Assembly (NCBI RefSeq): GCF_000526215.1
Contig: NZ_JAFQ01000004.1
Coordinates: 4,712,001-4,776,000 of the forward strand
DNA length: 64,000 nucleotides
Direction: 5' to 3'
Source of the DNA: Nocardia sp. BMG51109
Lineage (GTDB): Bacteria; Actinomycetota; Actinomycetes; Mycobacteriales; Mycobacteriaceae
Shown here: positions 42,137 to 44,691 of the stretch, piece after piece
Numbering within the stretch: position 1 is the stretch's first letter
Layout of the letters: every line of letters starts with the position of its first letter
Notes under the pieces: model-generated
What the model saw: the letters and a program-made list of their open reading frames with translations, nothing else
What the model was told of the DNA's origin: nothing
Database searches by the model: none
Position numbers and translations under genes: made by a program

Positions 42137-42712
42137 TCAGTTGCGGCGCTGCTGGACCTGGCGCTGGGCGCCGGAGCCCGAATTGGCCAGGGCCTCCAGG
42201 TCTTCGAGGAATTTCTCGATGCTCTCCGACTTCGCCCGGGCGGAGGCGGCCTGGTCGCGGACCTTCTCCTCGGTCAGCTCCAGCATCGCGGCGGCGAGGT
42301 CGGCCTCCAGGTCGCTGACCATCTGGCGGCGCAGCTGGAAGATCTGGGCGCGGCCCTGCTTGCGGACCCGCTCGACCTCGGCGGCGGCGGCCTCGCGCAT
42401 CTGCGCGATGATGTGCCCGGCGTCGGCCCGGGCCTCGGCCCGCATCACCTCGAGTTCGACCTCCGCCTGAGCCAGCGCGCTGTCGTAGGCCTGCTTGGCC
42501 TCGGTGAGCCTGGCGGCCGCCCGCTCGCTCTCCTCGAGCTGCCTGCGGACCATGTCCTGGGAGCGTGCCATCAGCGATTTGACCGGTGGGACAATCCATT
42601 TCACGGCCACGAAGATGATGACCGCGAATCCGAACAGCTGGCTGAAGAACACCGGCCAGTCGAAGCTGATGTGGTAGATGCCCTCGGCGAGCAGGCTGGT
42701 GGGATGGTTCAT
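42137..42712 (-). CDS. atpH: ATP synthase b'-type subunit; delta domain missing
   Basis: 191 residues: a membrane helix (FFSQLFGFAVIIFVAVKWIVPPV) and a long coiled coil (QAYDSALAQAEVELEVMRAEARADAGHI...). This corresponds to the N-terminal b-like domain of the b-delta fusion AtpH in mycobacteria (about 445 residues). The sequence stops just where the fusion's linker would begin (IEKFLEDLEALANSGSG), and no delta sequence follows in any frame. The next gene is the MBL protein, not atpA. The ATG overlaps the atpF stop as ATGA. Confidence 0.85.
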   Translation of the reverse strand: MNHPTSLLAEGIYHISFDWPVFFSQLFGFAVIIFVAVKWIVPPVKSLMARSQDMVRRQLEESERAAARLTEAKQAYDSALAQAEVELEVMRAEARADAGHIIAQMREAAAAEVERVRKQGRAQIFQLRRQMVSDLEADLAAAMLELTEEKVRDQAASARAKSESIEKFLEDLEALANSGSGAQRQVQQRRN

Positions 42713-43218
42713 GACGACGCCCGTCCTGTTCGATGGCCGGATCCGGATCCGGCGTGCCGATCGTCGCCGCCCACTACGCGGTCGGCCAGCGACTGGGCCA
42801 GCGGCTCGACCTCCTGGCGGAGCTCGGCGGCTACCTGATCCGCCTGCGCGCGCAGCTGTGCCTCCGATTCGGCGACGATGCCGTCGGCCTCCCGCTGCGC
42901 CTCGCCGCGCATCTCCTCGAGTATGGCCCGGCCCTCGGCGCGCGCCTGGTTACGGATTTCGGCGGCCTCGGCGCGCGCCTGCTCCAGCGCGGTCTGATAG
43001 CGGGCGTCGGCCTCGGCGAACACCTCCTTGGCCTCCTTACTGGCGGTCGTGGTCTCGGAGACCCGCTGTTCGCGCTCCGCCAGCACCTTCCGGATCGGCG
43101 GAACGACGAAGAACCAGATGATCCCGAGCACGATCAGGAAGATCGCCAGCTCGGCGAAGAAGGTGCCGTTGGGGATGAGGAAATTCCCCTCGGCGGCCAC
43201 ATCTGTTCGCGGAGACAT
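42709..43218 (-). CDS. atpF: ATP synthase F0 subunit b
   Basis: 169 residues: a membrane helix (GTFFAELAIFLIVLGIIWFFVVPPI) followed by a charged coiled coil (KVLAEREQRVSETTTASKEAKEVFAEADARY...). It forms the peripheral stalk that holds F1. It overlaps the next gene by four bases and follows atpE by 6 bp. Length is normal. Confidence 0.93.
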   Translation of the reverse strand: MSPRTDVAAEGNFLIPNGTFFAELAIFLIVLGIIWFFVVPPIRKVLAEREQRVSETTTASKEAKEVFAEADARYQTALEQARAEAAEIRNQARAEGRAILEEMRGEAQREADGIVAESEAQLRAQADQVAAELRQEVEPLAQSLADRVVGGDDRHAGSGSGHRTGRASS

Positions 43219-43224
43219 GGTGCG

Positions 43225-43482
43225 TTACTTACCGGGAGTCGCGAAGACGAACAGCGCCATGAAGGCCAGGTTGATGAAGTACGCGGCCTCGACCAGTCCG
43301 ACGGTCAGAAAGAAGTTGCCGCGCAACCGGCCCTCGGCCTCGGGCTGCCGGGCGACGCCGTCGATCAGGGCGGAACCCGCGAGGCCGTCACCGATGCCGG
43401 CGCCGATGGCGCCGCCCGCCATGATGAGGCCGCCGCCGATGAGGGCGCCCTGGACGATGGTCGCGGTGGTTGGATCTGCCAT
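43225..43482 (-). CDS. atpE: ATP synthase F0 subunit c
   Basis: 85 residues, the proton-carrying rotor subunit. Two helices are joined by the RQPE loop ([12 protein letters not shown]), and the ion-binding Glu65 lies in [18 protein letters not shown]. The sequence is nearly the mycobacterial one, including the residues known to line the diarylquinoline site, so the ring appears functional. Fourth gene in the I-a-c-b-b' order, counting b' last. Confidence 0.95.
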
Positions 43483-43540
43483 GTCACTTCCTGTTCTCGA
43501 AAACGGTCGACCGGAGACGCCGATCGGGGATTTGCGTGGC

Positions 43541-44305
43541 TCAGTGGTTCTCGTGCTCCAGCGACATCGATTGGCTGAAGTAGAGGACGGTCAGCAGCGA
43601 GAAGATGAATGCCTGGATGAACCCGACGAACATGTCGAACAGTTTCCACACGGCATTGGGCCCCCAACTGATCCAGAAGGGGAACAGCGTGATCACCGAG
43701 ATCATCACGCTGCCGGCGAACATGTTCCCGAACAGTCGTAGCGACAGCGAGATCGGTTTGGCGATCTCCTCGATGACGTTGACGAAAATCATCGGGCCCC
43801 AACCGGTATGGCCCTTCAGCAGCATTTTGCCGTGCGTGAACGGCCCGCGCCGGGCGATGCCCGCGCCCTGGTAGAAGGCGAAGACGAACAGCGCCAGCGC
43901 GTAGACGAAATTGACGTCCGACGCCGGGGGAGCGATCAGCTCGCCGTCGCCGTACTGCACTGGCAGCACCGACAGCCAGTTCGACAGCAGGATGAAGGTG
44001 AACAGCGTGACGGCCAGCGGCAGTGCGAAGGGCGCGACCTTCATGCCGATCGCGCTTTCCACCTGATTGCGCATGCCGACGGTCACGGTCTCGAAGAACA
44101 GCTGAACACCGTTGGGCACACCCGAGGTCAGCTTGATGCGCAGGATGATCGCCAGCACGATGACGATCAGCGCCGCCACGCAGGTGGACACGATGGTGTC
44201 GACATTGAAGTCCGTGCCGAGCCAGTGCGCCATGGTGTGGTGGCCGACCTCGATCTTCGGCTCGGACTCGCCCTCCTGGGCGAGGAGTGCAATGTGAGTC
44301 GTCAT
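43541..44305 (-). CDS. atpB: ATP synthase F0 subunit a
   Basis: 254 residues with six or so membrane helices. The essential Arg is in [14 protein letters not shown], and the C-terminal helix [24 protein letters not shown] is typical. [23 protein letters not shown] is the usual loop. The start overlaps the atpI stop as ATGA. It forms the stator half-channels with the c ring. All key residues look intact. Confidence 0.95.
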
Positions 44306-44691
44306 GGCAGTCGGCGAAGCCCTTTCACCTGAGGCAGGACGGTGCTCAGAATCACGACGACCTGGAAAACGGCCAGCCCGAAGAAGATGCCGATTCCGCT
44401 CGGGCGCGCCAGGAACGCAACCAGCAGGGAAAGGGCTGTGATACCGAACAATCGGACCGCGATGGAAACCGTCAGGGCGTGCTTATTCGGCATTTCCGAT
44501 CGGGTTATCCGGGTTACCGAAGACCAGGTGATTCGGGTATTCAACCAACCCAATGCCAGGCCGACGCAGATAAATACACCCAGCATCAATCTATCCAGTG
44601 CCCCGGTAGCCATCAGGGCCAGCACGCCGAGGGCTATCGCTTTGACAGCCGCATGGCTAACCCCGAGCCTGTTGACGTTCACTTGCGACAC
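44302..44691 (-). CDS. atpI: ATP synthase I-like membrane protein
   Basis: 129 residues from GTG 44691 (GCGAGGCG upstream), four hydrophobic helices ([63 protein letters not shown]). It corresponds to the gene preceding atpB in mycobacteria (Rv1303). The C-terminal [23 protein letters not shown] is the conserved part. The frame is open to 44745. It is thought to help c-ring assembly. Confidence 0.8.

Follow-up and report, generated by a model that had tools for sequence, protein, structure and literature searches.

The genome of Nocardia sp. BMG51109 encodes, besides a complete housekeeping ATP synthase operon, a second ATP synthase membrane sector (F0) that has no F1 genes of its own, and at the level of sequence the existence of a conserved F1-less F0 can be regarded as established. 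Its five genes lie in the window, by which we mean the whole 64,000-nucleotide stretch of DNA analysed here, which is part of an 8.53-Mb contig in a genome of 8.79 Mb. In the best-supported mechanism, to which we assign a probability of roughly 0.55, the cluster would supply an alternative membrane sector that assembles with the F1 and the delta subunit of the housekeeping enzyme.

The cluster consists of five intact, co-directional open reading frames (ORFs) on the minus strand (42137-44682) in the order atpI, a, c, b and b'. The a subunit (254 aa; 43541..44305, minus strand) matches PF00119 (ATP-synt_A, 1.9e-45) and carries the conserved arginine, which the alignment column places at Arg190. 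The c subunit (85 aa; 43225..43482, minus strand) matches PF00137 (ATP-synt_C, 4.6e-12) and scores 143.9 bits against NCBIfam PRK05880.1, above the curated cut-off of 120; according to the alignment columns it has its helix-2 carboxylate at Glu65, an RQPE loop at positions 45-48, Arg54 and Asn56. Two stalk subunits of the b type, b (169 aa; 42709..43218, minus strand) and b' (191 aa; 42137..42712, minus strand), match PF00430 (ATP-synt_B) at 3.8e-28 and 6.8e-16, respectively, and b' is without a delta domain. The atpI ORF (44302..44682, minus strand) has a homologue in 63 of 64 F0-only loci (L040 begins after atpI); profile searches gave no Pfam or NCBIfam match for it, and the name is based on position and similarity among loci. 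This ORF can be extended to 44745, and the GTG at 44682 is the preferred start in the aligned upstream regions, because a start at 44745 would fall within the promoter-like block described below. Neither the ORFs of the window nor Pfam searches revealed delta, alpha, gamma, beta or epsilon adjoining the cluster, so that delta and the F1 genes are absent from the operon, and the next minus-strand gene downstream of b' is an unrelated 277-aa ORF (41217-42050) with no Pfam match. Both sequence similarity and the gene order I-a-c-b-b' are those of the mycobacterial-type F0. A preliminary description of this DNA had listed I, a, c, b and b' as intact with their key residues and atpA, G, D and C as missing, and the present analysis agrees on both points.

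The same description took b' for a b-delta gene cut off after its b-like part, which the complete operons of relatives do not bear out. Among 30 such relatives (L066 and L072 being one organism counted twice), b' is a gene of its own, of 165-216 aa and followed by delta, in 12, and a b-delta fusion is found in 18. The best NCBIfam profile for b' is b/delta (PRK13428.1), with 142.9 bits against a cut-off of 328 and a match to positions 3-169 of 445; this match to the b half of the profile accounts for the view of a truncated gene. Since the score is under the cut-off and the delta domain is absent, b' was rejected as a b-delta fusion protein. Its length is about 190 aa across the family, 65 of the 69 b' relatives having 187-199 aa. 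As read from the gene order, the F0-only unit stops at the b'/delta boundary.

A second complete atp operon elsewhere in the genome, for which the preliminary description had proposed a search, does exist, with the order atpI-a-c-b-delta-alpha-gamma-beta-epsilon, about 1.2 Mb from the window on the same contig. In this housekeeping operon b (184 aa) and delta (274 aa) are separate genes, and there is a single b gene. Genome-wide, PF00306 (alpha C-terminal domain) and PF00213 (OSCP/delta) each have one match, both in the complete operon, by which a second F1 elsewhere in the genome is ruled out; because the only alpha and the only delta lie there, the window holds a second F0 and the genome has no second F1. 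The c family has two members in the genome, one per locus. The housekeeping operon belongs to another type than the window F0, and window-type and housekeeping a subunits share 25-27% identity (tblastn).

The F0-only cluster is widespread in Nocardia. A protein search with b' gave 69 proteins, the window's own included, and those relatives that carry an organism name are all from Nocardia save one metagenome-assembled genome (MAG) called Glaciihabitans. A genome scan with an alignment of 35 b' relatives gave 65 loci, of which 63 are titled Nocardia, one is a MAG titled Glaciihabitans and one is from Gordonia. In 64 of the 65 loci, searches with the housekeeping delta, alpha, gamma, beta and epsilon gave no match, with at least 1.2 kb of sequence downstream of the cluster in all of them and 10 kb in 57; the exception, from Gordonia (L066), is a complete operon. 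All 64 F0-only loci have b, b' and a c gene, and a, like atpI, is present in 63 (L040 starts inside c). The MAG locus (L029, JAODBD010000009.1) combines a type I cluster, as defined below, with Nocardia-like flanking gene families, and the MAG is probably a mislabelled or contaminated bin. When 150 Nocardia genomes were surveyed, a window-type a gene was found in 78, twice in 12 of them, and was absent from 72; 149 of the genomes had a single alpha, the remaining one, which is 88% complete, lacked a match, and a second alpha was found in none of the 150. Carriers of the cluster have larger genomes (mean 8.48 vs 7.17 Mb, Mann-Whitney p 3e-13), a difference confounded by ancestry. In the family as a whole, 105 of 301 genomes and 16 of 31 genera have a window-type match. 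Twenty-nine loci, a subset of the matching genomes, were fetched to cover the 15 matching non-Nocardia genera, and all 29 are complete operons with delta, alpha, gamma and beta in the same gene order; epsilon was seen in 28, the remaining fetched piece ending before it. In one complete operon (L103, genome G254, 3000-3800) the a gene match is split in two pieces, possibly by a frameshift or sequencing error.

The flanks of the F0-only clusters vary between clades. After clustering of the predicted genes of the 65 loci and the window, no gene family outside the five cluster genes occurred in more than 20 loci, and for this reason no functional partner is named from the neighbourhood. In 10 loci (L006, 10734-11150; L044, 10720-11184; L007, L045-L049, L052 and L054), b' is followed directly, in the same orientation, by a truncated-haemoglobin-like gene; these genes fall into two sequence groups, with PF01152 confirmed for one member of each. 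As such neighbours are restricted to two clades, the haemoglobin was rejected as a partner of the cluster. The preliminary description had offered a rearrangement breakpoint, an assembly join or a second F0 with a special role. The first two are contradicted by the recurrence of the five-gene unit, with an identical end and differing flanks, in dozens of independent assemblies, and the third is favoured by conservation in the genus, purifying selection and a promoter-like region belonging to the cluster.

Two types of F0-only cluster can be distinguished by a, c and the upstream region: type I comprises the window together with 51 of the scanned loci, and type II comprises 13. Both share Arg54 in c and a short insertion in a, where at least 85% of the full-operon relatives have a gap. 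In type II c, the proton-site Glu is replaced by Asp (Asp65) and Asp32 by Asn (Asn32) in 13 of 13. An unrooted tree of 89 concatenated rows sets the full operons apart at 100% support, groups type II at 100% and separates type I from the other two taken together at 99%; it includes one misplaced row, L106, which sits among the full operons at the end of a very long branch. This row, a lone housekeeping-type a, was counted among the F0-only loci in the a-row alignments and the tree and was excluded from the c residue counts, which also left out L040 (c fragment), L091 and L092 (taken as repeats of L058 and L065) and L066 (repeat of L072). With complete operons as outgroup, the tree would fit a single emergence of the F0-only state and a later duplication, and we infer that the direction of change was loss of F1.

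Purifying selection acts on the cluster genes. Median dN/dS, taken from the 25 closest pairs among 21 genomes with both loci, was 0.169 for a, 0.065 for c, 0.213 for b and 0.289 for b'. The corresponding medians of the housekeeping operon were 0.126 for c, 0.166 for b, 0.202 for delta and 0.143 for a, the last including one pair (G086-G408) with a dN/dS of 2.6 that is probably in the wrong frame; for the housekeeping F1 they were 0.160 (alpha), 0.162 (gamma), 0.086 (beta) and 0.199 (epsilon). The fastest-evolving cluster subunit is b', with 62% mean identity. None of the 90 a copies from the 78 Nocardia genomes has an internal stop, which together with the medians of 0.065-0.289 led us to reject a pseudogene remnant. 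Protein distances of the cluster correlate with those of the housekeeping F1 (Mantel r 0.745) and F0 (0.803; 0/2000 permutations each), so the cluster seems to have been inherited mostly with its host.

Alignment shows that type I clusters have a conserved, dedicated upstream region of promoter-like character. The 51 type I loci align 5' of atpI in AAGATCA copies, a TTGCNACGCAA-like box, a TGTGTA(T/A)GCT box and a hairpin leader. In the window, the putative promoter comprises, on the minus strand, a AAGATCAAAA box (44772..44781), a TTGCCACGCAA box (44758..44768) and a TGTGTATGCT box that resembles an extended -10 (44737..44746); where relatives have another AAGATCA copy further upstream, the window has a degenerate version (about 44788-44795). 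Mean identity among 19 representatives is 0.69 in the block vs 0.39 in the preceding 130 bp. The AAGATCA motif lies upstream of 50 of 51 type I loci and of none of the 13 type II, 29 full mycobacterial-type and 5 housekeeping-type operons. The block pattern has a single match in five of six carrier genomes, always at the cluster, and none in three cluster-free genomes; in the remaining carrier, G106, the pattern is not matched exactly. A search of eight genomes for a tandem AAGATCA regulon gave three matches at the cluster and one elsewhere (G412), with zero in two further carriers (G000 and G053) and two cluster-free genomes, and no regulon was found. Closer to atpI, the leader has a predicted hairpin, TCCCAT-AACGAC-GTGGGA (44704..44721, minus strand). 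Over 24 sequences, its stem has standard pairs in 87.5% of cells, and 37-59% are paired when the partner is slid; two-sided changes occur at three pairs, a value reached by 10 of 500 shuffles, the extra pair types are not unusual (85/500) and the outermost pair fails in 13 of 24. The leader has no match in Rfam. Upstream of the type II loci (L055, L057-L065, L067, L068 and L070), the inverted repeats TACTAC-N-GTAGTA and GTAGC-N-GCTAC occur in 8 and 9 of 13, respectively. BlaI is described, in the available parts of two reports, as a repressor of the mycobacterial atp operon (PMC12565901, PMC5874750). A BlaI-like control of type II via TACTAC-N-GTAGTA is not claimed here, as no BlaI box sequence was found for comparison (the searchable text of PMC8265638 gave no match).

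As for function, the cluster would form a complete second membrane sector, with a c ring, an a stator with its arginine, a b/b' stalk and AtpI, which presumably aids ring assembly, and without catalytic subunits. Once expressed, this sector could assemble with the only F1 of the cell and with free delta from the housekeeping operon, the c loop binding gamma and epsilon and the C-terminus of b' binding delta. The genome has one alpha and one delta, and a single alpha persists in 149 of 150 Nocardia genomes, of which 78 have the window-type a. The RQPE loop of c contacts gamma and epsilon in known enzymes, and it is kept in 64 of 64 F0-only c sequences. Only positions 50, 54 and 59, within and just past the loop, show fixed differences when type I c is compared with full-operon c. 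Position 54 is Arg in all 64 F0-only and all 6 housekeeping sequences, unlike the 29 full-operon relatives (Phe or Met in 29/29); position 56 is Asn in 54/64 F0-only and 6/6 housekeeping sequences (for housekeeping c, Asn 18 and Thr 3 in a wider set of 21 genomes) and Pro in 29/29 full operons. In b', positions 161-178 align with the C-terminal end of housekeeping b, and this segment has a dN/dS of 0.28 vs 0.66 and 0.68 in its neighbours. The loop residues and this constrained segment fit docking on the housekeeping F1 and delta, and the low dN/dS, the Mantel correlation and the dedicated upstream block point the same way; Arg54 and Asn56 may also be simply ancestral.

Several observations speak against such a hybrid. 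Its stalk would be a b/b' heterodimer, in contrast to the housekeeping enzyme, for which only one b gene is present. The loop, with a dN/dS of 0.081, lies below the housekeeping loop (0.288) and above positions 59-85 (0.020), and so is not the most constrained part of c. Position 50 goes the opposite way, with Glu in F0-only c and Gln in 29/29 full-operon and 5/6 housekeeping sequences, so that F0-only c fits neither. The exact motif [DE]RFLxxL is inconsistent in b' (23/52 type I, 8/13 type II, 8/29 full-operon), which is the fastest-evolving subunit, and the cluster is missing from 72 of 150 Nocardia genomes.

The main rival to pairing with the housekeeping F1, one we consider unlikely and still worth serious attention, is independent proton conduction, as supposed by the preliminary description, which saw in an F0 without F1 a proton channel. 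Here the F0 would work free of F1 as a regulated proton conductance that vents excess proton-motive force or balances pH, or as a rotor for some other membrane process; the lack of F1 and delta genes in 64 of 65 loci, the retained proton-path residues and the separate upstream region are all in line with it. On the other side, conservation of the loop that faces F1 and constraint on the C-terminal segment of b' point to contact with an F1, and the two b-type stalks have kept their full length, for which a bare channel would have no need. In E. coli, moreover, free F0 is usually poorly conducting or unassembled without F1.

It is improbable that a, c, b or b' enter or interfere with the housekeeping F0 singly, as spare or mixed subunits, without forming a whole sector. 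Single-subunit extras do occur in at least two Nocardia genomes (L104 and L106); against this, the sector genes are kept together with atpI, and a and c are strongly unlike their housekeeping counterparts. The extras, in the genomes G110 and G058, are lone housekeeping-type a genes (74% identical), located at L104 3016-3837 (minus strand) and L106 12000-12830 (minus strand), with no c, b or F1 gene near them in the 14.7-15.7 kb fetched. An ectopic F0 a is mentioned for Saccharopolyspora erythraea in the available part of PMC4154653. Least probable by far is that the cluster is what remains of an ancestral operon in decay, or an artefact of assembly or rearrangement: a history of replacement is plausible, as this F0 type occurs in complete operons elsewhere in the family and the working operon is of the other type, but the stop-free a copies, the low dN/dS, the identical unit in independent assemblies and the conserved upstream block stand against it.

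If the cluster does assemble with the housekeeping F1, the product would be a hybrid ATP synthase with a different rotor, operating one F1 at another proton-to-ATP ratio or proton affinity. In the PDB sequence list, the closest solved c subunits to window c, which we take to be mycobacterial, have nine chains per entry (360/40, 54/6 and 9/1 chains/entries), and for housekeeping c, whose closest solved relatives match at E about 1e-16, two of the three best rows show ten chains per entry. Should the housekeeping ring indeed be larger, the rotor swap would cut the protons spent per ATP. More tentatively, we suggest a gear-shifting ATP synthase, in which one F1 would use two or three swappable rotors (housekeeping, type I with Glu65, type II with Asp65/Asn32), each F0-only type under its own upstream control, and the proton cost of ATP would be switched by exchange of the sector.

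The usual view of a rotary ATP synthase joins one F0 to one F1, the ring and hence the proton cost being fixed. An F1-less F0 that is under selection, has an upstream region of its own and is present in about half of the genus offers a natural system in which to test rotor exchange on a single F1; if the F0 works alone, it would represent a dedicated F0 proton path. There may also be a practical side, since the window-type a occurs in 78 of 150 Nocardia genomes and each of the 64 F0-only loci has a c gene next to it: the presence of mycobacterial-type c in many Nocardia (43225-43482 in the window) may matter for atpE assays intended to be Mycobacterium-specific. One such assay was proposed as specific after comparison with Nocardia farcinica, the single Nocardia genome mentioned in the consulted portion of its report (PMC4219376).

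A literature search, with most subscription journals outside its scope, did not find an F1-less F0 in Nocardia, and comparison with known systems places the cluster as follows. The Nocardia housekeeping F1F0 operon shares the genome and is the source of the only F1, but the relationship of its a and c to those of the cluster is only distant, and it combines a single b with a delta gene, whereas the F0-only cluster has b/b' and no delta. The first five genes of the mycobacterial-type operon (atpI-a-c-b-b'/delta-alpha-gamma-beta-epsilon) have the same order as the cluster, and in the 29 full-operon loci a is 56-70% identical and c 77-87% identical in most (lowest 70%). In contrast to the cluster, with an unfused b' and c residues Arg54/Asn56, these loci have delta and F1 (epsilon in 28) and c residues Phe or Met54/Pro56. 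The N-ATPase is likewise a second F-type system in one genome, but it carries its own F1. An N-ATPase identity was rejected, as the cluster has no F1 of its own and scores far under the cut-offs (a 72 vs 302, b 41 vs 225, c 26 vs 131 bits). Mycoplasmas, in the accessible text of PMC3369863, have F1-like ATPase clusters, which resemble the Nocardia cluster as half of an F-type system standing alone and are its mirror case, the recognisable part being the F1-like subunits. A whole extra F0 has a published precedent in one deltaproteobacterium, Desulfococcus oleovorans, for which the available part of PMC4154653 reports a fully duplicated ectopic F0 complement, located off the main locus as in Nocardia; that case concerns a single organism, whereas the Nocardia F0 is genus-wide and of other origin, with its selection and upstream region examined here.
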